DNA of 50,019 bases from Ignavibacteriales bacterium. Lineage in GTDB: Bacteria; Bacteroidota; Ignavibacteria; Ignavibacteriales; SURF-24. Below the pieces are notes generated by a model. The model was given only the letters and a program-made list of their open reading frames with translations. It ran no database searches and was not told the origin of the DNA. Numbering within the stretch: position 1 is the stretch's first letter; each line of letters begins with the position of its first letter. Below, piece after piece: positions 2,468 to 49,168 of this stretch. A program made the translations under genes and the position numbers. The DNA is taken from NCBI GenBank assembly GCA_026390815.1, contig JAPLFH010000053.1, forward strand, positions 1 to 50,019. The letters run 5' to 3'.

Positions 2468-3388
2468 TTATTTTATTAGGATCATTTTTCTTGTAATTCT
2501 GTTTTTATCCGTAATAAGTGTATAAAAATATAACCCTGAAGATAGTTTGCCTGCATCAAATACTACTTTATGTTTCCCGTTAACTTGATTTTCATTTACA
2601 ATCTCACTCACTTTTTCGCCTATCGAATTATATATTATAAGTTTTACAAAAGAATAATCTGGTAAGTAATATTCTATATTTGTAACCGGGTTGAATGGAT
2701 TGGGGTAGTTTTGTAATAAATATATTTCAGCAGGAAGATTGTTTTTATTTTCAACTGATGTAAATGTAGTATCACCATAAACAACACCATCAATAACACA
2801 ACCCCATAAGTAATCCATAAATTCTTCAAAAGATCCTCGAATCATACCGAATTCTTTTGTCCATAACTCCGAACTCTGTATAAAGTTATTAGTATCTTTT
2901 TTACCTATATGGAATACAATTACATTTGTACCAAAAACATTAGCAGTGAATGTATCTATAACAGTGCTTATATAATAGACATCACCATTTATTATTTGCC
3001 CCCAGGAATCACCATACTTAATATTTGTTTTAAAATATCTAAAAAGTGAATCAGGATATTCATAAGAATTTGGATAATAGTATGCGTAAAAACTATCCTT
3101 AGTAACGGTATAAAGCTGTCCTGTTTCGTCCAATATAGATTGATTGGTTATTTTATAAGGAAGAGGTTTGTAATTCAATTCAACTCGAAAATATTTTTTA
3201 CCATTTATTTCAGTTAAACTATCGATTACAGTATAGCGAACGGACTCATCTGGATCTGGCGATCCAAAACTTGCACCTCTATAGGTCCAGGAGTTCCCTA
3301 CTTTTAATGGCGCAACATGAGTTACTAACTGAGCAACTAATGCTATGGGAAATAAAAATATTAAACTAGTAAGAAATATTATTTTCAT
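2468..3388 (-). CDS. Secreted protein with T9SS type A sorting domain
   Basis: A signal peptide (MKIIFLTSLIFLFPIALVAQ) is followed by about 200 residues of unrecognised beta-rich sequence (LKVGNSWTYRG, YTVIDSLTEINGKKYFRVE). A complete T9SS type A sorting domain closes the protein, from YLLQNYPNPFNPVTNIEYYL to the terminal RKMILIK. The start is uncertain: the frame is open to an ATG at 3412, but AAAGAG is well spaced (8 nt) before the ATG at 3388, which also gives the cleanest signal peptide. The family should be exported across the outer membrane and anchored or released by the type IX system. Its last 70 codons are almost identical in DNA to those of the next gene upstream (3444-4373). The function of the N-terminal domain is unknown. 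Confidence 0.75.
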   Translation of the reverse strand: MKIIFLTSLIFLFPIALVAQLVTHVAPLKVGNSWTYRGASFGSPDPDESVRYTVIDSLTEINGKKYFRVELNYKPLPYKITNQSILDETGQLYTVTKDSFYAYYYPNSYEYPDSLFRYFKTNIKYGDSWGQIINGDVYYISTVIDTFTANVFGTNVIVFHIGKKDTNNFIQSSELWTKEFGMIRGSFEEFMDYLWGCVIDGVVYGDTTFTSVENKNNLPAEIYLLQNYPNPFNPVTNIEYYLPDYSFVKLIIYNSIGEKVSEIVNENQVNGKHKVVFDAGKLSSGLYFYTLITDKNRITRKMILIK

Positions 3389-3443
3389 TTTCATTGCTCT
3401 TTTATTAAGCATTCATAATGTGCTATTTAATTAAATTCATTTT

Positions 3444-4373
3444 TTATGTAATTCTGTTTTTATCCGTAATTAGTGCATAAAAATATAACCCTGAAGATAG
3501 TTCGCTGGCATCAAATACTACTTTATGTTTCCCGTTAAATTGATTTTCATTTACAATCTCACTCACTTTTTCACCTATGGAATTATATATTACAAGTTTT
3601 ACAAAAGAATAATCTGGTAAGTAACATTCTATATTTGTAACCGGGTTGAATGGATTAGGGTATGCTAATATTTCATGGTCATTATAACTATTTTGTTTAT
3701 GATTATCTTTAATAGCTGTAATAATATCATATCTATTATTGTTTATTATGGCTCCTGCAAGGTACCAGTTCGGCGCTAATTCTGCTAATTCTTCAAGCAA
3801 TCCCACACCTCTTGCAATCCAGATAGAACCCCAACCTGTTATTGTATTCCATTGTGTGTCAATAATGCCCTCATTCCAAAAATCGCCAATTACTACATTT
3901 GTAAATAATTTTGTCTGAATTGGAATAGAAAATAGAGGATAATATTGGTATAAAGTTTCTTGGACACCTGAAAAATAGTTTTCATTTTGACTGTCAAATA
4001 AACAATATAAATCCCAAAACGAAGAATCCTTAGCGCCAAAATCATAGAATAGTTCTTCATAATCATTAGTATCGCAATACCAGATGTATTGATAAACATA
4101 TCGATTATTTTCCACACGTTGAAATATGGTATCTCTATCCCAAATATATCTCTTATGCGATCTGACAACAGCAAAATAGTTTTTATTATTAGCCATTGTA
4201 GTATCATAAACTACCCATCTATACTTTGTTTCTAACGCATTAGTATAAAAATCATATCCTTGGTATTCCCAAAAATCACCTACTTGCAAAGGATAACATA
4301 TTGCGGTATCCAATTGGCTAAAAATTGAATTAAAGTTTGCTGTGAAAATAAAAAGGATCAAATATTTTTTCAA
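3444..4373 (-). CDS. Secreted protein with truncated T9SS sorting domain (paralogue of 2468-3388)
   Basis: The start is a TTG at 4373 with AGAGG about 7 bases upstream; it yields a signal peptide (MKKYLILFIFTANFNSIFSQ). The mature part has a PLQVGDFWEYQGYDF opening similar to the neighbour's LKVGNSWTYRG. It ends in a T9SS domain (ILAYPNPFNPVTNIECYL). The domain stops early at KNRIT: a TAA at 3444-3446 sits where the paralogue has the AGA (Arg) of RKMILIK. Reading past it gives KMNLIK and then TAG at 3423-3425, so the lost tail is still visible. Export or anchoring may be impaired. It was probably made by duplication or by gene conversion of the sorting-domain segment. The function of the N-terminal part is unknown. 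Confidence 0.7.
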   Translation of the reverse strand: MKKYLILFIFTANFNSIFSQLDTAICYPLQVGDFWEYQGYDFYTNALETKYRWVVYDTTMANNKNYFAVVRSHKRYIWDRDTIFQRVENNRYVYQYIWYCDTNDYEELFYDFGAKDSSFWDLYCLFDSQNENYFSGVQETLYQYYPLFSIPIQTKLFTNVVIGDFWNEGIIDTQWNTITGWGSIWIARGVGLLEELAELAPNWYLAGAIINNNRYDIITAIKDNHKQNSYNDHEILAYPNPFNPVTNIECYLPDYSFVKLVIYNSIGEKVSEIVNENQFNGKHKVVFDASELSSGLYFYALITDKNRIT

Positions 4374-25237: not shown

Positions 25238-28096
25238 ATGCTTACCGGAAATTATCTTGATCTGTTCAACCAACTAAAGAAAAAAAATCCACAAAAAAGA
25301 TTAATCCATAATGAACTGCTCACTTTAGCTTATGGAACGGATGCAAGTTTCTATCGATTAATCCCAAAACTTGTCGTTCAGGTTGAAAATGATGATGAAG
25401 TAATTTACGTTTTAAAAAAATGCACCGACTTAAAACTACCTGTTACTTTCCGCGCAGCTGGTACAAGTCTATCCGGCCAATCGATTTCGGATTCCGTACT
25501 TGTTATGCTTGGTACAAGCTGGAATAAATTCAAAATAAATGAAGATGCTTCTCAAATTTCACTTCAGCCAGGAATTATCGGTGCGCACGCAAATTTATTT
25601 TTAGCTGCTTATAATAAAAAGATCGGTCCCGATCCGGCTTCTATAAACTCTGCTATGATTGGAGGAATAGCCGCTAACAATGCCAGCGGTATGTGCTGCG
25701 GTACAGCGCAGAACAGTTACAAAACTTTATCTGGAATGAAAATAATTTTTCACGATGGTAGCACTCTTGATACTAATGATGAAAAAAGCAAAAGGGATTT
25801 TCTAAATTCTCACGGAGAAATTATAAGTAGAATCACTTCCCTATCCGAACAAATAAAATCTAATCCAGAACTTGCCGACCGGATAAGCAGAAAATTCAAA
25901 ATGAAAAATACAACCGGCTTTAGTTTGAATGCGTTTGTGGACTTTGCGGATCCAATTGAAATAATCCAGCACCTAATGATTGGAAGCGAAGGAACACTTG
26001 GTTTTATTTCGGAAATAACTTACAACACATTGCCAGAATTGGCAGATAAAGCAACTTCCTTAATGATTTTTCCGGATTTGATTTGCACAAGTAAAGCAGT
26101 TGCCATTTTAAAGAAACAAAAAGTTGAAGCTGTTGAACTAATGGATAGAGCTGCACTTCACTCTATTGAAAATAAAGAAGGGATGCCCGTTTATTTAAAA
26201 GAATTGGATGAGTGTGTTGCTTCTCTTTTAGTCGAAACCCGTTCAGTAAATAGTGCGCTGCTTCAGGTTCAGGTTGATGAAATAATAAATTCTTTAAATG
26301 ATATTCCAAAAGTATTTCCAATTTCTTTTACAACAGATAAATATGAGTTTAATAAATTGTGGGATATTAGAAAAGGACTTTTCCCTTCAGTTGGTGCAAT
26401 GCGAAAAACCGGAACAACAGTTATAATTGAAGATGTTTGTTTTGCAGTGGAACAGCTTGCTGAAGCTGTTGCCGATCTGCAATCGCTTTTCAAAAAACAT
26501 CATTATGATGACGCAATAATTTTTGGGCATGCTCTGGAAGGAAACATTCACTTTGTTTTCAAACAGGATTTTAATGTTGATTCTGAAATTACCCGTTATA
26601 AAAATTTTATTGATGACGTAACAAAACTTGTTGTTAAAAAATACGATGGTTCGTTAAAAGCCGAACATGGCACCGGAAGAAATATGGCTCCTTTTGTTGA
26701 ACTGGAATGGGGATCGGAGGCTTACCAGTTGATGAAGGAAATAAAAAGTATTTTTGATCCGAAAGGAATTCTTAATCCTGGTGTTATTTTAAATAGCGAT
26801 AGTACAGCTCACATAAAAAACCTTAAACCGCTCCCATCTGCAAATTCAATTATTGATAAATGTATTGAGTGCGGCTTCTGCGAAATAAATTGCCCATCAA
26901 AGGATTTGACTCTTTCACCAAGACAACGAATAGTTGCCTGGAGAGAAATATCCCGGTTGCAGACAACGCGGGAAGATCCAATCCTCTTAGAAACTTTAGT
27001 TGATGAATTTGATTATTATGGAAATCAAACCTGCGCTACCGATGGTTTGTGTGCTACAAGCTGTCCAGTAGAAATTAATACCGGCAACCTGATAAAAGAA
27101 TTACGAGTTGAAAAAACATCCAGCACTGCAAATACTATTGCCGATATCCTTGCCAATAATATGAAAGGTATAACCGCAAGCATGAGAGGAATGCTAAACC
27201 TTGTTGGAATTGTTCATACAATAATTGGCACCACCGCAATGGAATTCATTTCGAAATTTCTACGAAGAATTTCCGGAAGCAAAATTCCTTTGTGGAATAA
27301 ATATATGCCTCACGGAGCAGATAGAATAAAGACAACTTCTCTTAACCAAAAAACAGAACTGAAAGTTGTTTACTTTCCAAGTTGCATAAATAGAAGTATG
27401 GGTTTATCTAAACACAGTGATGAAAAAAAATCTTTAACAACAACAACTTATTTATTATTAAGAAAAGCCGGATATGAAGTTATCTATCCCAATAATCTTT
27501 CGAACCTTTGCTGCGGAATGGCTTTTGCAAGCAAAGGATTTAAAAAGCAAGGAGATGCAAAGGCAAAAGAATTGATTGAAGAATTACAGAAAATTTCTGA
27601 TAATGGAAAACTTCCTATTCTTTTTGATATGAGTCCCTGTTTATACAGAACAAAAGAATATTTATCAAATCATCAGCCCAACAAATTTTCAGATCAATTT
27701 AAAATTTATGAACCTGTTGAGTTCATCTCCAATTTTTTAATGGATAAATTAATTTTCAAAAAGTTATCGGAAACTATTGTTATACATTCTACTTGCAGTA
27801 ATACAAAACTTGGCTTAACGGAACAACTTATAAAAATTTCCGAGGCTTGTGCAGAAAAAGTAATCAATCCTTACAATGTTGGGTGCTGCGGCTGGGCTGG
27901 GGATCGAGGTTTCACTTATCCAGAGCTAAATGAATCTGCATTAATGAATTTAAAAAGTTCTATCTCTGACGATTGCAAACATGGTTATTCTACAAGTAAA
28001 ACCTGCGAGATTGGTCTATCACTTCATAGTGGGATTAATTACGAATCAATAATTAACTTGGTGGATAAGTGTACTGATCCGAAGGTAATCAGTTAA
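25238..28096 (+). CDS. FAD/iron-sulfur D-2-hydroxyacid dehydrogenase (D-lactate or D-2-hydroxyglutarate type)
   Basis: A three-part fusion of 952 residues. Residues about 40-270 are an FAD_binding_4 domain (FRAAGTSLSGQSISD, IGGIAANNASGMCCG). Residues about 280-520 are the FAD-oxidase C-domain ending in GILNPGVIL. From about 545 a ferredoxin-type module carries CIECGFCEINCP and CATDGLCATSCP. Residues about 700-950 have two CCG-type motifs (LCCGMAFASKGF and GCCGWAGDRGF) as in GlpC/LldE heterodisulfide-reductase-like domains. Such membrane-associated enzymes oxidise D-lactate or D-2-hydroxyglutarate and pass electrons to quinone or cytochrome; the substrate is not readable. GAGGTG precedes the ATG. 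Its stop codon overlaps that of the convergent cobalamin protein. Confidence 0.9.
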   Translation: MLTGNYLDLFNQLKKKNPQKRLIHNELLTLAYGTDASFYRLIPKLVVQVENDDEVIYVLKKCTDLKLPVTFRAAGTSLSGQSISDSVLVMLGTSWNKFKINEDASQISLQPGIIGAHANLFLAAYNKKIGPDPASINSAMIGGIAANNASGMCCGTAQNSYKTLSGMKIIFHDGSTLDTNDEKSKRDFLNSHGEIISRITSLSEQIKSNPELADRISRKFKMKNTTGFSLNAFVDFADPIEIIQHLMIGSEGTLGFISEITYNTLPELADKATSLMIFPDLICTSKAVAILKKQKVEAVELMDRAALHSIENKEGMPVYLKELDECVASLLVETRSVNSALLQVQVDEIINSLNDIPKVFPISFTTDKYEFNKLWDIRKGLFPSVGAMRKTGTTVIIEDVCFAVEQLAEAVADLQSLFKKHHYDDAIIFGHALEGNIHFVFKQDFNVDSEITRYKNFIDDVTKLVVKKYDGSLKAEHGTGRNMAPFVELEWGSEAYQLMKEIKSIFDPKGILNPGVILNSDSTAHIKNLKPLPSANSIIDKCIECGFCEINCPSKDLTLSPRQRIVAWREISRLQTTREDPILLETLVDEFDYYGNQTCATDGLCATSCPVEINTGNLIKELRVEKTSSTANTIADILANNMKGITASMRGMLNLVGIVHTIIGTTAMEFISKFLRRISGSKIPLWNKYMPHGADRIKTTSLNQKTELKVVYFPSCINRSMGLSKHSDEKKSLTTTTYLLLRKAGYEVIYPNNLSNLCCGMAFASKGFKKQGDAKAKELIEELQKISDNGKLPILFDMSPCLYRTKEYLSNHQPNKFSDQFKIYEPVEFISNFLMDKLIFKKLSETIVIHSTCSNTKLGLTEQLIKISEACAEKVINPYNVGCCGWAGDRGFTYPELNESALMNLKSSISDDCKHGYSTSKTCEIGLSLHSGINYESIINLVDKCTDPKVIS

Positions 28097-28767
28097 TTCA
28101 CTTTTACTTTCGATTTTACTATTTGGGTTTTATAGGTGTTTTTTAAAAATAATTCCAGCTCTGCAAGGGATGGAATGTAGAAAACATTTTTAAATTTATT
28201 AAGAACCTCATCCTTTCCATTAGCAAGAGCTTGCCCACCTACAATTATTTTTAATCTGGGGAATTCTTTCTTTACTTTCTCAATTAAATCAAGCAGCCTT
28301 AGAACATTAATATAAAAAGTTAGTGAGATTGCCAGAAGGTGCGGCTGCTTTGTTCTTATTAATCTAAACAGTTCTGATACCGGAGCATTTGCACCAACCA
28401 AAAAAGTTTCCCATCCATTCCATTCAAATAAATCAGCCACTATTTTGGCGCCAATCTGGTGGAACTCTTTGGGAACGCAGGCAACTATTACTTTTTTATT
28501 TCTTTTTTCTTTTGAATGCAAAGCTGCATAAGTTAAATCAATCATGCATTCAGTAATTGATGTTGCAACGTGTTCTGTTGCAACACAGATTTTGTCACTT
28601 TCCCAAAGTTTACCTATCTGGTATAAAGATCTTTGGAAAAGACCTTTATATAAATTTATGGGATCAACTTTATGTTCAAGTAAATGGACAACTATGGCAG
28701 CACATTTTGCTTTATCCCCTTCAATCAAAGATGACATATATTCCAAATAGAGAACTTCATTGATCAT
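28093..28767 (-). CDS. Stand-alone CarH-like cobalamin-binding protein without DNA-binding domain
   Basis: Residues about 1-90 form the helical cobalamin cap (B12-binding_2 type) and 90-210 the Rossmann-like B12-binding domain (KKVIVACVPKEFHQIGAKIV, LLAISLTFYINVL, KIIVGGQALA). Two motifs match those of AdoCbl photoreceptors of the CarH/LitR group. One is W-x9-EH, exactly Trp55 and Glu65-His66; the other is E-x-H-x-x-G, Glu101-His103-Gly106, in place of the D-x-H-x-x-G of methionine synthase and mutases. CarH itself has an N-terminal MerR-type helix-turn-helix, which is absent here: the protein begins directly with the cap. It may be a light-responsive antirepressor analogous to AerR/PpaA, or a corrinoid carrier. 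It is monocistronic and convergent with the dehydrogenase gene. Confidence 0.82.
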   Translation of the reverse strand: MINEVLYLEYMSSLIEGDKAKCAAIVVHLLEHKVDPINLYKGLFQRSLYQIGKLWESDKICVATEHVATSITECMIDLTYAALHSKEKRNKKVIVACVPKEFHQIGAKIVADLFEWNGWETFLVGANAPVSELFRLIRTKQPHLLAISLTFYINVLRLLDLIEKVKKEFPRLKIIVGGQALANGKDEVLNKFKNVFYIPSLAELELFLKNTYKTQIVKSKVKVN

Positions 28768-28850: not shown

Positions 28851-29402
28851 TCAATCTTCACCATAAATTTTTCCATAAAGTTCGTTGTACAGCTTCCGGC
28901 TTTCATTTATAATTTTGTATGCATCTTCTTTACCAAGGAATCTTTCTACTACAACATTTTTGTGTTCCAGTTTTTTATAATCTTCAAAAAACCTTTTAAG
29001 CTCAACAATAAAATGAGGGGGTAGTTCAGATAAGTCGTTTGCATAATTTACAGACATATCATTTTTAGCAACCGCAACAATTTTATCATCTTTCTCATTG
29101 TCATCTACCATGTGCATAACCCCCAAAACTTTTGCTTCGATGATGCACAACGGATCAACATCTATTGAGCAAATCACTAAAATATCCAGAGGATCTTTAT
29201 CATCACAATAGGTTTTTGGAATGAAGCCATAATTTGCCGGATAATGAACCGAAGAAAATAAAACTCTGTCAAGTTTTAATAAACCGCTTTCTTTATCAAG
29301 CTCGTATTTTGCTTTAGATCCTTTGGGGATTTCTATTATTGCATTTACAAATTCTGGAACAAATTTTCCAGTAGTTACACCGTGCCATGGATTACTTACC
29401 AT
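28851..29402 (-). CDS. ppa: Inorganic pyrophosphatase, family I
   Basis: A cytosolic enzyme that hydrolyses pyrophosphate from biosynthetic reactions. The family I core is clear: [18 protein letters not shown], then [24 protein letters not shown] with the metal-binding Asp series, followed by [13 protein letters not shown]. The length of 183 residues is normal. GAGG lies 5 bases before the ATG at 29402. The upstream side is the long noncoding gap to the TonB-receptor operon. The downstream gap of about 80 bases to the cobalamin protein start contains no obvious terminator, so limited cotranscription of the two is possible. Confidence 0.95.
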
Positions 29403-37020: not shown

Positions 37021-38052
37021 ATGAAAACAATGAATATTTTTATGGTATTATTCCTTGTTCTCATACTGGGATTGAATACAGCATATGCGGGTGCAGGTAA
37101 CCGAACTGGTACCGGCGGCGCTTCGCAGTTGCTAATCCCTGTCGGAGTTCGAGGTATTTCAATGGGTGAACAGGGTGTGGCTACTTCCAAGGGAATTGAA
37201 GCACTTTTTTGGAATCCTGCTGGAATTTCGAAAATGCGAAATTCTACCGAAGTAATATTTTCTCATATGAATTATATTGCTGATATCGGTCTTGAATATG
37301 GTGCTGTTGCCTCTAATGTTACTGGCTTTGGTACGGTTGCCCTTAGTGTTAAGTCACTTTCAGTTGGAGATATTCCAGTAACTACTACTCGTGATCCTGA
37401 TGGAAACGGAACAATGTTTTCACCTCAATATATAACAGCCGGTTTATCTTTTTCCAGATTATTGTCTGACAAGATTTCTGTTGGTCTTACTGCAAATTTT
37501 GTTACAGAATCACTTGGCAATGCAAGTGCGAGTGGTCTTGCATTTGATATAGGTGTTATGTATGATAATTTAGCTGATCTATCAGGATTAAGCTTTGGCA
37601 TTGTTCTAAAAAATCTGGGTCCTCAGATGAAATATGATGGCTCTGCTTTGTATGTTCAGGCTGATGTTACAGATTTTGGTAGACCACCACAGTACTACAA
37701 AATAACTACTGCTGGATTTGAGTTACCAACTGTATTCCAACTCGGTTTTGGTTACAGACCTCAAATTGATGAAGTAAATAATTTACTGGCTTCAGTATCA
37801 TTTCAAAATAATAACTTCTCCGATGATGAATACCGGTTAGGTTTAGAATATGGATATAAAAGTACATTTTTTATACGAGGTGGTTATTCATTAGCACCAC
37901 AGGCATTAAAGGACAATTATATTTATGGTCTTACTGCCGGTTTAGGAGTAAATTACGAGTTTGAAGGTATTGATTTAAAAGTAGATTATGCGTACAGAGA
38001 TGTAAAGTATTTCGATGCAAATCATATTTTCTCAATTGGAGTTGGATTCTAA
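37021..38052 (+). CDS. PorV/PorQ-family outer-membrane protein
   Basis: A signal peptide (IFMVLFLVLILGLNTAYAG) is followed by the family opening GGASQLLIPVGVRGISMGEQ, then ATSKGIEALFWNPAG. The rest is a series of amphipathic beta strands ending with FSIGVGF, an outer-membrane barrel C-terminus. At 343 residues it matches PorV/PorQ proteins. PorV (LptO) is the T9SS factor that shuttles cargo from the translocon to the attachment machinery. A copy encoded beside a T9SS cargo and a TonB receptor suggests a dedicated export partner. AAGGAG lies upstream of the ATG, and a strong terminator follows at 38075. Confidence 0.87.
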   Translation: MKTMNIFMVLFLVLILGLNTAYAGAGNRTGTGGASQLLIPVGVRGISMGEQGVATSKGIEALFWNPAGISKMRNSTEVIFSHMNYIADIGLEYGAVASNVTGFGTVALSVKSLSVGDIPVTTTRDPDGNGTMFSPQYITAGLSFSRLLSDKISVGLTANFVTESLGNASASGLAFDIGVMYDNLADLSGLSFGIVLKNLGPQMKYDGSALYVQADVTDFGRPPQYYKITTAGFELPTVFQLGFGYRPQIDEVNNLLASVSFQNNNFSDDEYRLGLEYGYKSTFFIRGGYSLAPQALKDNYIYGLTAGLGVNYEFEGIDLKVDYAYRDVKYFDANHIFSIGVGF

Positions 38053-43380: not shown

Positions 43381-44310
43381 TTATTCTGCTTCCGATTTCT
43401 TTATAAAAACTGAAGCCAGAACACTTACAACCAAACATAAAATAATTACCCCAAGTGATATCTCAACCGAAATATGAACATATCCGGAAATGAGCATCTT
43501 TATTCCCACCAAAAATAAAATAACTGAAATACCATATTTCAGGAATCTGAATAAATTTAGAATACCAGTAAGTGCAAAGAACAAGGAGCGTAATCCCAGG
43601 ATGGCAAAAAGATTTGAAGTGATAGCAATAAAGGAATCCCTGGTGATTGCAAGTACCGCGGGAATGGAATCTACCGCAAATATAACATCGGTGGATTCAA
43701 TAAGAATCAATGTAATAAAAGCTATGGTTCCATATGTTTTTTTATTCTCTTTTACAAAAAAATGATCCGAATTATAATTCATCTTGATTTTTAAAAATCT
43801 GGATGCAAGTTTTACAAAAATATTTTTTTCAGGTTCAATCTTTTCATCTTTTGCCGTTAGCATTTTATAAGCAGTATAAATAAGAATTGCGCCAAATACA
43901 TAAATCATAAACTCAAATTTTTCAATTAAGCTTACACCAGCAATAATGAAAAGTATCCTTAAAACTACAGCACCCAATATTCCCCATTTTAAAATTCTTG
44001 GTTGGTTTTTATCCTGGATTCCCATAACAGAAAAAATCATTATAAAAACGAAAAGATTATCAACTGAAAGAGAATACTCTACCAGGTAGCCAGCAACAAA
44101 TTCAAAGGCTTTCTCACCACCGTTAGGGAAATAGAAGTAAATAGCGCAGGCAAAAACCAGAGCAGTTACAATCCAAATGAGGGACCAGATGAGAGCAATT
44201 TTAACTCTTATCTTTCCTTTCCGATGATCTGTAACAATCATATCTATGGTAAAAACAGATATAAATATCAAAATGAAGATTAGCCAAAACGCAAAATGAA
44301 TTTCCATCAT
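43381..44310 (-). CDS. TerC/Alx-family integral membrane protein (copy 1)
   Basis: A 309-residue protein with seven or more hydrophobic helices and the TerC signatures YSLSVDNLFVFIMIFSVMG and ESTDVIFAVDSIPAVL, carrying conserved acidic residues inside the membrane. The family is linked to tellurite resistance, pH response (Alx) and manganese or calcium export. The sibling at 44423-45388 has the same layout (YSLSIDNLFVFIMIF, GTTDIVFAMDSIPAIL), so this is a tandem duplication. It is separated from its sibling by 112 bases on the same strand. Confidence 0.88.
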   Translation of the reverse strand: MMEIHFAFWLIFILIFISVFTIDMIVTDHRKGKIRVKIALIWSLIWIVTALVFACAIYFYFPNGGEKAFEFVAGYLVEYSLSVDNLFVFIMIFSVMGIQDKNQPRILKWGILGAVVLRILFIIAGVSLIEKFEFMIYVFGAILIYTAYKMLTAKDEKIEPEKNIFVKLASRFLKIKMNYNSDHFFVKENKKTYGTIAFITLILIESTDVIFAVDSIPAVLAITRDSFIAITSNLFAILGLRSLFFALTGILNLFRFLKYGISVILFLVGIKMLISGYVHISVEISLGVIILCLVVSVLASVFIKKSEAE

Positions 44311-44422
44311 CTTTAAATTACAATTGATTTGTTGCTTTGAAAATAAAGCAACATTAGCGAAAAAGCAATTTTAAAAATGGAAAGAAGTAAGAACTTAAGT
44401 AAGATAAATTTAGTAAGATGGG

Positions 44423-45388
44423 TTAACTATTAAATCTTGATTCTTCATTCTTAACTCTTATTGGTTCTGGCTTTGATTCTTTAATAATAATAGAAACAAG
44501 AACTGAAATTAATAGTGTTAGAATAATAAATCCCAGCGAAGTAATAATTGGAATCTGATACCATTTGGAAATCAACATTTTTATCCCAACAAATAGAAGT
44601 ATAAAAGCTACACCGCTTTTAAGAAATCTGAACATATGCATTATCCCTTCAAGCGCGAAAAAAAGAGAAATTAAACCGAGTACAGCAAAAACATTTGAGG
44701 TAATAACAATAAAGGAATCTTGCGTAATACCTAAAATTGCCGGAATAGAATCCATAGCAAATACAATGTCTGTTGTTCCAATCAAAATAAAAATAAGAAA
44801 CAGAGTTGTTGCATAAATATTCCCACCCTTTTTTAGGAAGAAGCGAAAACCATCCTGCTTGGTTTCGATTTTAAAATATTTTGAAGTAGCACGATAAAAC
44901 ATATTCTTTTCAGGCTCAATTTCATTATCATCCATAAAAGCCATTTTATAAGCGGTATAGATTAACACAACTCCAAAGATATAAATAAAGAAATGGAAGC
45001 GATGAATCAGCTCAACTCCAAAAAGTATAAAGACTATGCGAAGAAAGATTGATAGTAAAATTCCAATTTTTAACATTTTGGGTTGATTATTTTCAGTTAT
45101 ACCCATAACTGAAAATATCATAATGAAAACAAAAAGATTATCAATCGATAGAGAATACTCTGTTAAATAACCGGCAATAAATTCAAATGCTTTTAACTTT
45201 CCTTCCGGAAAAAAGAAATAAATACTAACACCATAAAAGAGAGCTACAGAAATCCAAATGCCGGTCCACATTAATGCAGTTTTAATTTTTATCCTACCAT
45301 CACGATGATTGGTAACAAACATGTCTATAGAAAAGACAATAATAAAAATGGAAATGAATGCGATCCAGAAGAAAAAGTGTGTGTTCAT
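44423..45388 (-). CDS. TerC/Alx-family integral membrane protein (copy 2)
   Basis: The ATG at 45388 (MNTHFFFW) is preferred over a TTG at 45400. It has the TerC core YSLSIDNLFVFIMIFSVMGI and TDIVFAMDSIPAILGI, with a hydrophilic loop in the middle (MDDNEIEPEKNMFYRATSKY). It starts 16 bases after the stop of the sodium-pump beta subunit, so it is probably part of the same transcript. A metal-ion or pH-homeostasis function is known for the family; its link to sodium pumping here is inference. Confidence 0.88.
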   Translation of the reverse strand: MNTHFFFWIAFISIFIIVFSIDMFVTNHRDGRIKIKTALMWTGIWISVALFYGVSIYFFFPEGKLKAFEFIAGYLTEYSLSIDNLFVFIMIFSVMGITENNQPKMLKIGILLSIFLRIVFILFGVELIHRFHFFIYIFGVVLIYTAYKMAFMDDNEIEPEKNMFYRATSKYFKIETKQDGFRFFLKKGGNIYATTLFLIFILIGTTDIVFAMDSIPAILGITQDSFIVITSNVFAVLGLISLFFALEGIMHMFRFLKSGVAFILLFVGIKMLISKWYQIPIITSLGFIILTLLISVLVSIIIKESKPEPIRVKNEESRFNS

Positions 45389-45404
45389 GATTTTTAACAA
45401 AAGT

Positions 45405-46628
45405 TTATTTTAGAAATATTGGAATTAGCGTAATATATATTCCAGCAATTATTGCAGTAGTAATTACTCCACTAATGTTTGCACCAATTGCTTCTGCCAG
45501 AATTAAAGAATCTGGGTTTACCTCGTGAACTGATTTTTGTGCAACTTTAGCAGTTGTTGGTACACAGCTTACACCAGCAATTCCAATAACAGGATTAAAT
45601 TTTCCTTTTGTTATAAAATACATTATATATCCACCAATGATTCCACCAATACCTGAAAGCAAGAGAGAAACAATTCCAAGTACAAGCAGAATTAATATTT
45701 TTGGATTTAAAATTAAATGAGCCTCACACAATACACCAAGCAGCAATCCTAGAAAGAATGTTGAACCATATAGTAATGGGCCACCGATAAAATCAATTAA
45801 ATGCTGAAGTCCAGATTCGCGAATAGCGACACCAACAAATAAAGATAAAAACAGTGGTGCCGCAACTGGAAACATTAAACACAAAACTGTACAAGTAACA
45901 ACAGCAAAAGTCATCTTCTCCGAAGAAGTAATCGGTCTCACTCTCTTCTTAGGTGGTTCCATTTTAATCGCTCTAAGTTTTTTAGGAACCAATAATTTAA
46001 TTAAATAAGGATAACCTCCATACGTTAATCCTAAATAGAGATATGCCACTACGGTAATTGGAACAAACAATTCTTTAGACAGAACTAAGGAAGTGAAGAG
46101 TACCATTGGTCCATCTGCTCCACCAACCATTGCAATTGATGCAGAGTCTCTTAAATTCAAACCAAGTGCATAAGCTATTGGAACTGTTGCAAACGTACCA
46201 AGCTCTGCACAGATTGCCAGAAACATACTTAAAAACGGGCGGGCAAGTAAAAAACCTACATCAAGCAAAACACCAATACCCATAAAAACAAAGCAAGCGA
46301 TTAAACCATTACTGAATGTAAATGTATAAATTGGCTGGAGGAAGTTGATTTGCAAAGCATCAAGAAGTAGTTTAGGATCTGTAATTAAAGGATCAACAAA
46401 AAGATTTCCCTGGGAGCCATTAGGCATAAAAAGAATTCCGCCATTTATTGCAGCCATACCCAATCCCATAGGAATCATAAGCAGCGGTTCAAGTACTCCT
46501 TTTTTTCCAAGGTATACCAACAGCATGCCTAAAAGCATTAGTCCAATTCGAGCAATTAAAATTATTGGTTCTGAATTAACAAGTGTTGCTATTCCTTGAA
46601 ACAGATTTAATATGTCGTTCGGATTCAT
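45405..46628 (-). CDS. oadB: Sodium-translocating decarboxylase beta subunit
   Basis: A 407-residue membrane protein. The family landmarks are MIPMGLGMAAINGG, then ASIAMVGGADGPMVLFTS with the conserved Asp of the pore, and GVSCVPTTAKVAQ near the C-terminus. The beta subunit of oxaloacetate, glutaconyl-CoA or methylmalonyl-CoA decarboxylases removes CO2 from carboxybiotin and uses the energy to pump sodium outward. With the upstream carboxyltransferase, biotin carrier and epimerase, methylmalonyl-CoA is the likely substrate. AAAGGA is five bases before the ATG. Confidence 0.93.
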   Translation of the reverse strand: MNPNDILNLFQGIATLVNSEPIILIARIGLMLLGMLLVYLGKKGVLEPLLMIPMGLGMAAINGGILFMPNGSQGNLFVDPLITDPKLLLDALQINFLQPIYTFTFSNGLIACFVFMGIGVLLDVGFLLARPFLSMFLAICAELGTFATVPIAYALGLNLRDSASIAMVGGADGPMVLFTSLVLSKELFVPITVVAYLYLGLTYGGYPYLIKLLVPKKLRAIKMEPPKKRVRPITSSEKMTFAVVTCTVLCLMFPVAAPLFLSLFVGVAIRESGLQHLIDFIGGPLLYGSTFFLGLLLGVLCEAHLILNPKILILLVLGIVSLLLSGIGGIIGGYIMYFITKGKFNPVIGIAGVSCVPTTAKVAQKSVHEVNPDSLILAEAIGANISGVITTAIIAGIYITLIPIFLK

Positions 46629-46656
46629 CAGTGTCCTTTACATTAATTTCATCACA

Positions 46657-46785
46657 TCACAATTGTTCGTCGTCTTTGGATAACCGTATAAACCAAAAAA
46701 TTACTTTTATTAAAAATGCAACGAAGAACGAAATCACTATTGCGATTCCATACATAAGCAAAGTTTGTAGGATTATTTTGAACAA
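46657..46785 (-). CDS. Tiny one-helix OadG-like gamma subunit
   Basis: This 42-residue ORF starts at a TTG (46785) with GGAAG six bases upstream; it is closed upstream by a TAA and contains no earlier ATG. The peptide has one long hydrophobic helix (MYGIAIVISFFVAFLIKVIF) with a short charged C-terminal tail (RLSKDDEQL). It lies 28 bases before oadB, where the gamma subunit of sodium-pumping decarboxylases is expected. Normal OadG has a helix plus a cytoplasmic domain; here only the helix is present, and the soluble 85-residue protein at 47337 may supply the rest. Found by reading the minus strand. Confidence 0.6.
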   Translation of the reverse strand: MFKIILQTLLMYGIAIVISFFVAFLIKVIFWFIRLSKDDEQL

Positions 46786-46877
46786 ATTAGTCTTCCATTA
46801 ATAAAAATATTCTTTGAATGAACATGGATACATAAAATTATAAATCATTCACACTTAATTTGATTTTAGTGTTCTGA

Positions 46878-47321
46878 TCAATTACCAATCTCAATAAGTA
46901 TATCACCTTCCAGTACCGGATCACGGGGATTTACTTTTATTGCAGAAACAATTCCTTCTTTATCGGATTTAATATTATTCTCCATCTTCATTGCTTCTAA
47001 TGTTAGCAAATGATCACCAATTTTAACAACATCCCCAACTTTAACATTAATATTCAATATTGTGCCTGGTAATGGAGATCTTATAAATCCAACACCTTTA
47101 GGAGCTGAGGGTTCGGCAGTGCGTTTAATTGATTTTGAAATATCTGTAGATGGTTCAGCTTTAGAGCGTATTAGCGTAGGTGTTTTTGTCTGCTGAATTT
47201 TTTTATCTACTTCAACGCTGTACTTTGTTCCGTTCACAACTACTTCAGCAACATTGTCTTCAATATTTACAATATCAACATCGTACTGGTTCTGATTAAT
47301 CTTAAATTTAAATTTCTTCAT
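46878..47321 (-). CDS. Biotin carboxyl carrier protein of the decarboxylase
   Basis: A 147-residue protein with an N-terminal beta segment (FKINQNQYDVDIVNIEDNVA), a Pro/Lys/Ser-rich linker (residues about 45-70) and a C-terminal biotinyl domain (IRSPLPGTILNINVKVGDVV). The biotin-accepting lysine is Lys112 in LEAMKMEN. It shuttles the carboxyl group between the carboxyltransferase and the beta subunit. It begins 15 bases after the 85-residue protein and precedes the OadG-like and oadB genes. Confidence 0.92.
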   Translation of the reverse strand: MKKFKFKINQNQYDVDIVNIEDNVAEVVVNGTKYSVEVDKKIQQTKTPTLIRSKAEPSTDISKSIKRTAEPSAPKGVGFIRSPLPGTILNINVKVGDVVKIGDHLLTLEAMKMENNIKSDKEGIVSAIKVNPRDPVLEGDILIEIGN

Positions 47322-47336
47322 TTTATTTCTCTTTGA

Positions 47337-47594
47337 TTATCTTCTTGGATTTTGTCTTAAGCTGTAAATCTTAGAACTCCATGGAGAATATGGACGAATA
47401 ACTCTTTGCATTGTTAACATCATCGATTCGTAATCATGTACATCTTTTAAATAAAGATGAATTGCTAAACCAATCGCTGCGTAAACTTCACCTTCTTTTC
47501 CTAAACTGCTGGCTTCTCTTTGTACTTCTTCCATTTCCTTAAAGGAACTTCCGAATTCAATCCGCTTGCTTTCCTTCTTCTTAAAAAATTTCAT
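47337..47594 (-). CDS. Small soluble subunit of the decarboxylase, OadG-like
   Basis: An 85-residue protein in the fixed position between carboxyltransferase and biotin carrier. It is basic at the start (KFFKKKESKRIEF), has a helix with a conserved EVYAAIGLAIHLYLKD pattern, and ends in YSPWSSKIYSLRQN. The aromatic C-terminal motif resembles the W-containing tail of gamma/epsilon-type subunits, which bind the carboxyltransferase. It has no membrane helix, unlike full-length OadG. AGAGGG precedes the ATG; it starts 14 bases after the carboxyltransferase stop. The function is inferred from position and resemblance. Confidence 0.6.
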   Translation of the reverse strand: MKFFKKKESKRIEFGSSFKEMEEVQREASSLGKEGEVYAAIGLAIHLYLKDVHDYESMMLTMQRVIRPYSPWSSKIYSLRQNPRR

Positions 47595-47608
47595 TTCTAT
47601 TCCCTCTT

Positions 47609-49168
47609 TTATAACGGAAGATTATCATGTTTCTTCGGAGGCATCGAATCTTTCTTTGTTGCTAAAGATTGTAAAGCTCTAATAATTCTGAAGCGCGTAT
47701 TTATTGGCTCGATAACATCATCGATGAAACCATACTTAGCGGCAACATAAGGAGAGGCAAATTTATTCCTGTATTCATCTTCTTTCTTCGCCAGGAATTC
47801 AACTCTTTCTTTTTCATCTGTAATTTCAGAAAGTTCTTTGTTGTGAAGAATTTCTATTGCCCCGCGTGGACCCATAACTGCTATTTCGGCTGTTGGCCAT
47901 GCGTAATTGATATCTCCGCGTAAATGTTTTGAGCCCATTACATCATAAGCACCACCATATGCTTTACGAAGTATTACAGTTATTTTGGGAACTGTTGCTT
48001 CGCCATAAGCATAAAGTAATTTTGCTCCGTGAATAATTATTCCACCATATTCTTGAGCAGTGCCAGGTAAAAAGCCAGGTACATCCACTAATGTTACAAT
48101 TGGAATATTGAATGCATCGCAGAAGCGAACAAACCGTGCTGCTTTTCGCGAGGCATTTATATCAAGTACACCAGCTAAGTAGCTTGGTTGATTTGCCACA
48201 ATTCCAACTGGTTGCCCATTAAAGCGGGCAAAGCCAATGATTATATTTGGTGCATAATGTCTTTGTATTTCAACAAATTCATTGTAATCTGTAATAAGAT
48301 GAATAACATCTTTCATATCATAAGGTTTGGAAGAATCCTCAGGGATAATATGGTTTAAAGTATCTTCTAATCTTTCAATCGGATCGTCACAAGGAATGAC
48401 TGGCGGATCTTCCAGATTATTTTGCGGCAAATAGCTCATTAGTTTCCGAATCAATAATATTCCTTCCTGCTCATCATCAGCAACAAAATGTGCTACTCCT
48501 GATTTTGAACCGTGAACCATAGCACCGCCAAGTTGTTCATCAGTTACTGTTTCACCAGTTACTGTTTTTACAACTTTGGGACCAGTTACAAACATATAGC
48601 TTGTATCTTTCACCATTATTGTAAAATCAGTTAATGCTGGGGAATAAACGGCACCACCGGCACAAGGACCAAAGATAGCAGAGATTTGCGGAACAACTCC
48701 AGAAGCCATAATGTTGCGTTGGAAAATTTCGGCATAGCCGCCTAAACTTTTTACACCTTCCTGAATACGTGCACCGCCAGAGTCGTTTATTCCAATTACA
48801 GGTGCACCAACCTTCATAGCTTTGTCTAAAACTTTACAAATTTTCATAGCATACATCTCAGAAAGCGAGCCGCCAAAAACTGTAAAGTCCTGAGAAAAAA
48901 CATAAACTAATTTCCCATCAATTGTTCCATATCCAGTAACTACTCCATCCGATAAAAAATCCTGTCCCTTCAATCCAAAGTCAATACATCGGTGCGAAAC
49001 AAACATATCGAATTCTTCAAAACTTCCTTCATCCAAAAGCATATCAATTCTTTCGCGGGCAGTAAATTTTCCTTTCTTATGCTGCGATGCAATTCTTTTT
49101 TCGCCACCGCCTAAACGTGCTTTATCGCGCATCTCCATCAATTCTTGAATTTTGTCTTCAATAGCCAT
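47609..49168 (-). CDS. mmdA: Methylmalonyl-CoA decarboxylase/acyl-CoA carboxylase carboxyltransferase subunit
   Basis: A 519-residue carboxyltransferase of the PccB/MmdA family. Recognisable motifs are [57 protein letters not shown] and [17 protein letters not shown], the two crotonase-fold halves that bind acyl-CoA and carboxybiotin. The length is normal. In this context, with epimerase upstream and OadB downstream, it most likely transfers the carboxyl group from methylmalonyl-CoA to biotin; propionyl-CoA carboxylation in reverse cannot be excluded. AGGAGA lies five bases before the ATG. Confidence 0.93.

Follow-up and report, generated by a model that had tools for sequence, protein, structure and literature searches.

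The window analysed here is a 50,019-nucleotide stretch of DNA from an Ignavibacteriales bacterium (Bacteroidota; Ignavibacteria), comprising positions 1 to 50,019 of contig JAPLFH010000053.1 in GenBank assembly GCA_026390815.1. Its minus strand carries, starting from an ATG at position 28767, a gene for a 224-residue stand-alone cobalamin-binding protein (CBD), which an earlier note on the sequence had described, without giving a strand, as a CarH-type light-sensing cobalamin (B12) module lacking a DNA-binding domain. The gene follows an inorganic pyrophosphatase gene and converges on a gene for an oxidoreductase that is probably functionally unrelated to the CBD (Table 1). No histidine kinase gene adjoins the CBD gene at this locus, and the annotated genes of the window include no methyltransferase gene. 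An Rfam scan of the window returned no match at all, hence no cobalamin riboswitch, and a promoter and terminator scan of the window remained at or below the shuffle expectation.

Table 1. Positions of the CBD gene, its sequence features and its two neighbours in the window.
Feature	Position	Strand	Basis or remark
Stand-alone cobalamin-binding protein (CBD), full gene	28093..28767	-	Open reading frame (ORF) list; upstream space too short for a DNA-binding domain
Four-helix-bundle cap, B12-binding_2, residues 12-72	28552..28734	-	Pfam; AlphaFold2 helices 4-83
Trp55 in GxxW and W-x9-EH, predicted to cap the adenosyl group	28603..28605	-	Sequence; PMC10442372
Glu65-His66 of W-x9-EH	28570..28575	-	Sequence, homologue alignment
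Rossmann-type B12-binding domain, residues 92-190	28198..28494	-	Pfam
E101-F-H103-Q-I-G106, His103 being the predicted lower axial ligand	28450..28467	-	Sequence; PMC11796333
G125-A-N-A-P129, the GxxxP part of the published light signature	28381..28395	-	Sequence; PMC11796333
Inorganic pyrophosphatase, directly upstream of the CBD gene, 83 nt gap	28851..29402	-	Same order in 4/4 CBD-holding genomes of family f1
FAD-linked / Fe-S oxidoreductase (GlcD- and YdiJ-like), convergent, stop overlaps the CBD stop by 4 nt	25238..28096	+	Conserved neighbour in family f1

In the window protein, the Pfam scan found the B12-binding_2 and B12-binding domains, both far above cut-off, and no domain besides these two, with no MerR-type helix-turn-helix (HTH). 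The six residues to which the earlier note had drawn attention (Trp55, Glu65 and His66 of W-x9-EH; Glu101, His103 and Gly106 of E-x-H-x-x-G) are all found where it placed them, and the protein also fits the full CarH-type motif ExHx2Gx41SxV/Tx22-27GG, in its case as ExHx2G-x41-SxT-x26-GG (E101...G106, S148, T150, G177-G178). When the protein is shuffled, the two short motifs co-occur in only 13 of 200,000 shuffles. A missed upstream HTH is ruled out: an in-frame stop lies 17 codons before the ATG, so no DNA-binding domain can be added to the reading frame, the pyrophosphatase gene ends 83 nt from the CBD start, and the orthologues, mostly 210-235 residues long, have the identical CBD start and no HTH. 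The absence of the HTH thus stands as first described, and one of the two cases that the earlier note had named as its own refutation, a fused DNA-binding domain in a corrected gene model, is excluded by the upstream stop and the orthologue starts.

Light responsiveness in cobalamin-binding domains has been linked to W-x9-EH (PMC8156234; PMC11796333), and an experimentally tested light signature for such domains consists of GxxW, EH, GxxH and GxxxP (SignatureFinder; PMC11796333). The window protein carries GxxW (G52-W55), EH (E65-H66) and GxxxP (G125-P129); the remaining element is weighed below. The residue after Trp55 is Glu56, at the site where Thermus CarH (TtCarH) has its light-state ligand His132. 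Other photoreceptors vary at this position, CtMerR, SasPcob and AbDPcob carrying R, Q and Y, and a green-light response persists in photoreceptors that have no His at this site (PMC11796333). Because of the acidic residue at the His132 site and this variation among photoreceptors, a CarH-like bis-histidine light state is not expected in the window protein and CarH-like photolysis is plausible.

Among solved structures, the best sequence matches are the photocobilins 8j2w and 8j2x, followed by 8j2y and 8jbs (CtMerR), with CarH lower. An AlphaFold2 model built from a three-sequence alignment (predicted local distance difference test score, pLDDT, 75; predicted template modelling score, pTM, 0.70) has SasPcob as its nearest structure, with Z 20.6 across 203 residues and a root-mean-square deviation of 2.9; the CtMerR and CarH domains give Z 15-19. 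With photocobilin and CarH-type photoreceptor domains as its nearest solved relatives, the protein appears to have the adenosylcobalamin (AdoCbl) photoreceptor-type pocket proposed for it. It shares with CarH/LitR (Thermus, Myxococcus; also CtMerR, 8JBS) the cap plus Rossmann B12 domain, W-x9-EH and ExHx2Gx41SxTx26GG, but it has no MerR/HTH part, has Glu for His132 and Lys for the Gly of GxxH, is only ~20% identical, and reaches 41 bits with the full-length NCBIfam CarH model NF052513, whose cut-off is 400. The photocobilins (SasPcob and AbDPcob, each a CBD with a biliverdin globin) are its best match in both sequence and fold, yet the window protein has no globin or bilin domain, and neither the fused-type globin profile A1 nor the separate-type profile A4 has a match in the source genome. 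As defining features of both classes were looked for and found missing, we claim neither that the protein is a CarH nor that it is a photocobilin; most likely it works like the sensor domain of either. The earlier note's proposal of a CarH-type AdoCbl pocket with no DNA-binding domain attached is thus supported.

Among 146 genomes from the order, 67 contain a match with an E of 1e-12 or better; by our own count, a close stand-alone homologue (E about 1e-48 or better) is present in about 59, and another set of the 146 carries a paralogue of ~355 residues. GxxW-x9-EH and [ED]xHxxG are kept in all 31 stand-alone homologues read, and the position after the Trp is Glu or Asp in every one of these; the Pro of GxxxP is absent in two relatives (L032 and L034), the former being the nearest named relative (63% identity, Ignavibacteria). 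No other confirmed cobalamin domain of the source genome has W-x9-EH. A tree places the stand-alone proteins and the globin-CBD fusions on either side of a supported split, with distant references on long branches and therefore of unsure placement. The ratio of non-synonymous to synonymous substitution rates (dN/dS) is 0.05-0.09 in two close pairs (NG86 and YN00). The spread of homologues, the intact motifs and this ratio show that the window gene is under purifying selection and is not a remnant. That it might be a decaying, functionless leftover of a photocobilin stripped of its globin and kinase is accordingly hardly credible: no partner, linked or unlinked, was detected in the source genome, and the gene is missing in about 60% of the order as well as in a fifth genome of the window's family (G008), which keeps the pyrophosphatase, but all pocket residues are kept and the gene's position is conserved within each family.

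The neighbourhood of the gene is conserved within families. In that of the window (f1), the CBD gene follows the pyrophosphatase gene on the same strand in 4/4 genomes with a CBD, at gaps of 65-322 nt. A second family (f2) has it, with short gaps, between genes for a PAP2-type membrane phosphatase and a GH13 glycosidase, the former at 15 loci and both at 14 (L036-L044, L046, L047, L052, L063, L066 and L069, with L046 lacking the GH13 gene). In a third (f3), it precedes an MCE/Mla-type lipid transporter set of permease, ATPase and MCE protein at five loci (L045, L048, L051, L062, L067), and at two others (L049, L053) it follows a BtuR/CobA adenosyltransferase gene, with DtxR/FeoA-like and FeoB-like iron genes on its other side. 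Because the neighbours vary between families, a fixed metabolic enzyme partner is disfavoured.

In five stand-alone relatives, the CBD gene shares its operon with a gene for a soluble histidine kinase. The order is CBD-kinase at L033, CBD, a globin-like protein of ~150 residues and kinase at L050, L064 and L103, and CBD, kinase and globin-like protein at L104; the L050 kinase was identified by its similarity to other kinases. The genomes concerned belong to the order itself, to a different family of the class and to a different family of the phylum, and one is a Desulfocapsa-labelled metagenome-assembled genome that could be misbinned. The CBDs of L033, L103 and L104 share 42-45% identity with most of the window protein, and by their sensor parts the partner kinases fall into two sets of related sequences, L050/L064/L103 and L033/L104. 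The ~355-residue globin-CBD paralogues are likewise followed by a kinase gene, at gaps of -4 to +14 nt, at every such locus read; their N-terminal domain shows weak yet consistent similarity to phycobiliproteins. Outside the phylum, in Ilyobacter, a protein of the ~150-residue type is fused ahead of the CBD, upstream of a GGDEF gene. From its place in this fusion we infer that the separately encoded protein is 'globin-like', since a profile comparison of the two globin-like types gives a weak link (hhalign E 0.034, probability 1.5%). A fused relative in Azospirillum, likewise from another phylum, lies close to a kinase gene. Gene neighbourhoods, which are not proof of interaction, thus suggest that, in several lineages, the input side of the CBD family has been associated with soluble kinases. 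Separate B12 and globin genes, as proposed for L050, L064, L103 and L104, are known from clusters of a split B12-binding protein and BBAG-2 globin (PMC10151467); those clusters hold a bilin reductase and often a heme oxygenase, whereas the relatives here have a histidine kinase and the window locus has neither. Two loci of globin-CBD paralogues have peculiarities of their own. At L056 (5839-6902, genome G016) the paralogue is read as two ORFs (173 + 169 residues) before the kinase, reflecting a frameshift or a true split, and at L054 (2834-5062) a KatG-like catalase-peroxidase gene is divergent from the globin-CBD and kinase pair, a possible link to oxidative stress that is not seen at L060.

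In the source genome, a search for partner and cofactor genes gave a mixed outcome for the suggestions of the earlier note. A linked or paralogous MerR-CBD partner is rejected: the MerR proteins of the genome are two small ones (132 and 148 residues) with no B12 domain and no locus shared with the CBD. The 300-residue HTH_17/MerR-like protein fused to a W-x9-EH B12 domain at L106 (4783-5685), likely a CarH-type regulator, belongs to another family of the class. As to carotenoid genes, the search covered SQS_PSY proteins and found only an adjacent pair, which suggests squalene rather than carotenoids, since one member is HpnC (NCBIfam). The cobalamin genes bore the suggestion out. A PduO-type adenosyltransferase is present, as is a methylmalonyl-CoA-mutase-type B12 subunit (named from its sequence); a BtuR adenosyltransferase was not found in the genome. 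Judged from these genes, the source organism makes or can make AdoCbl.

We moderately favour the view that the window protein is a free-standing AdoCbl sensor subunit of CarH/photocobilin type that acts through contact with a partner, was ancestrally read by a kinase, and has an unlinked partner today. AdoCbl rather than methylcobalamin binding, a light response, action by protein contact and the kinase as ancestral reader are what we infer from the evidence above. In the dark, AdoCbl would be held at the interface of helix bundle and Rossmann domain, the cobalt lying above His103 and the adenosyl group being covered by Trp55 and Glu65. Under green or blue light the Co-C bond would break, the adenosyl group would depart, and the helix bundle would shift relative to the Rossmann domain. 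As Glu56 replaces TtCarH His132, the light state would probably be aquo- or hydroxocobalamin rather than a bis-histidine form. The resulting conformational or oligomeric change would be sensed by a separate protein through direct contact, for which there is a precedent in a stand-alone photocobilin that alters a diguanylate cyclase in trans in vitro (PMC10979010). The ancestral reader may have been a soluble histidine kinase whose gene adjoined that of the CBD, in many cases together with a gene for a third, globin-like subunit; in the lineage of the window, the CBD gene would have become detached from this operon to stand after the pyrophosphatase gene, a position from which we take the present partner to be unlinked. 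The earlier idea of action on a separate partner regulator therefore fits in its direction the kinase operons of relatives, but no such partner was found in the source genome.

Several observations weigh against this interpretation. The neighbours change with the family (pyrophosphatase; PAP2 phosphatase with GH13 glycosidase; MCE transporter; BtuR) and, in the source genome, none of the kinase loci tested has an A3-type sensor part; the N-termini of five partner kinases (L033, L050, L064, L104, L054), compared with 20 kinase-bearing stretches of that genome, gave no credible match. The remaining signature element, GxxH, reads K100-E-F-H103 in the window protein, with Lys100 at the Gly position, which is K, N or Q in every stand-alone homologue read and mostly G in the fused globin-CBD relatives (N in L057 and Ilyobacter). 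This glycine touches the corrin through its main chain (PMC11796333), so that Lys100 need not abolish binding, and the stand-alone clade may be missed by a signature filter based on GxxH. The TtCarH variant H132A, in which the same ligand is gone, mostly stays tetrameric in light (PMC10442372); by analogy, a CarH-like oligomer switch may not occur in the window protein. The model also matches Thermus methionine synthase with Z 19.9, nearly equal to the 20.6 for SasPcob, so fold alone does not separate photoreceptors from methionine synthase, and the discrimination comes from the pocket residues. AdoCbl binding and light response are, for the window protein itself, predictions from these residues.

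The main rival, which we regard as rather unlikely though deserving of attention, is a sensor of AdoCbl level or corrinoid redox that reports coenzyme B12 status to a partner, partly like short AerR, its light sensitivity being incidental. The pocket motifs indicate AdoCbl recognition only, two relatives (L049 and L053) adjoin an adenosyltransferase gene, the Gly of GxxH and CarH His132 are both replaced, and light makes no difference to the binding of several cobalamins by SAerR (PMC9144470); but W-x9-EH belongs to light-responsive domains, the operon logic of the relatives is common with photocobilin-type globin fusions, and AdoCbl held in this way would be expected to be photolabile anyway. 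An anti-repressor like AerR/PpaA, binding a transcription factor directly and altering its DNA binding, was the other possibility raised in the earlier note, and its proposed comparison holds in part. These proteins and the AppA SCHIC domain have a B12-type fold without a DNA-binding part, action on a partner protein being their feature (for AerR/PpaA, the repressor CrtJ/PpsR); AerR equals the window protein in size and stand-alone architecture, is among its matches in fold (7te2, Z 18.3) and sequence (E 0.003), and retains the Trp (PMC9144470). The AerR-like protein read here, however, has no W-x9-EH, the recurrent neighbour in relatives is a kinase, and no transcription-factor gene is a conserved neighbour except the DtxR/FeoA-like genes in two relatives, which makes direct control of a transcription factor improbable.

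Very improbable, in our estimate, is a corrinoid methyl carrier of MtaC/MtbC/MetH-module type serving an unlinked methyltransferase. The MtaC/MtbC/MttC proteins have an equal two-domain architecture and length and a similar fold, and weak matches to methyltransferase corrinoid proteins exist, the best of these models (TIGR02370) giving 54 bits; this is nevertheless far under its cut-off of 215, as is the case for every methyl-carrier model. In MetH the Trp position is occupied by Phe (PMC9144470), the source genome's own carriers are without W-x9-EH, and wherever the neighbours of a stand-alone homologue were identified, no methyltransferase gene was among them. The genome's carrier candidate on C34, by contrast, adjoins a gene that reads as trimethylamine-methyltransferase-like (L099).

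More broadly, and only tentatively, the partner-contact AdoCbl sensor that we favour for the window protein could belong to a large clade of soluble single-domain B12 photoreceptor subunits, devoid of DNA-binding domain, globin and bis-His ligand, that form split two-component systems in which a diffusible AdoCbl light sensor works with a soluble kinase and, in some cases, with a separate globin-like protein; members like the window protein would have moved into metabolic or envelope operons as exchangeable light inputs. B12 photoreceptors are known mainly as fusions, namely CarH-type repressors and globin-containing photocobilins, and a full-text search of one literature library found no paper on a B12 photoreceptor in Ignavibacteria. 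If the proposal is right, a conserved clade with a separate sensor gene, paired in several lineages with a histidine kinase gene, would show how B12 light sensing can feed two-component signalling via protein contacts and would provide a small (about 25 kDa) green-light module, and the stand-alone clade offers a test of the need for the GxxH Gly and His132 in the light response.

Elsewhere in the window, two tandem TerC-family genes stand beside genes for the beta subunit of a Na+-transporting decarboxylase and a carboxyltransferase (43381-49168; methylmalonyl-CoA or oxaloacetate decarboxylase-like). Type IX secretion is represented by a PorV-like gene and by two proteins that carry Por-secretion sorting domains (2468-4373 and 37021-38052).

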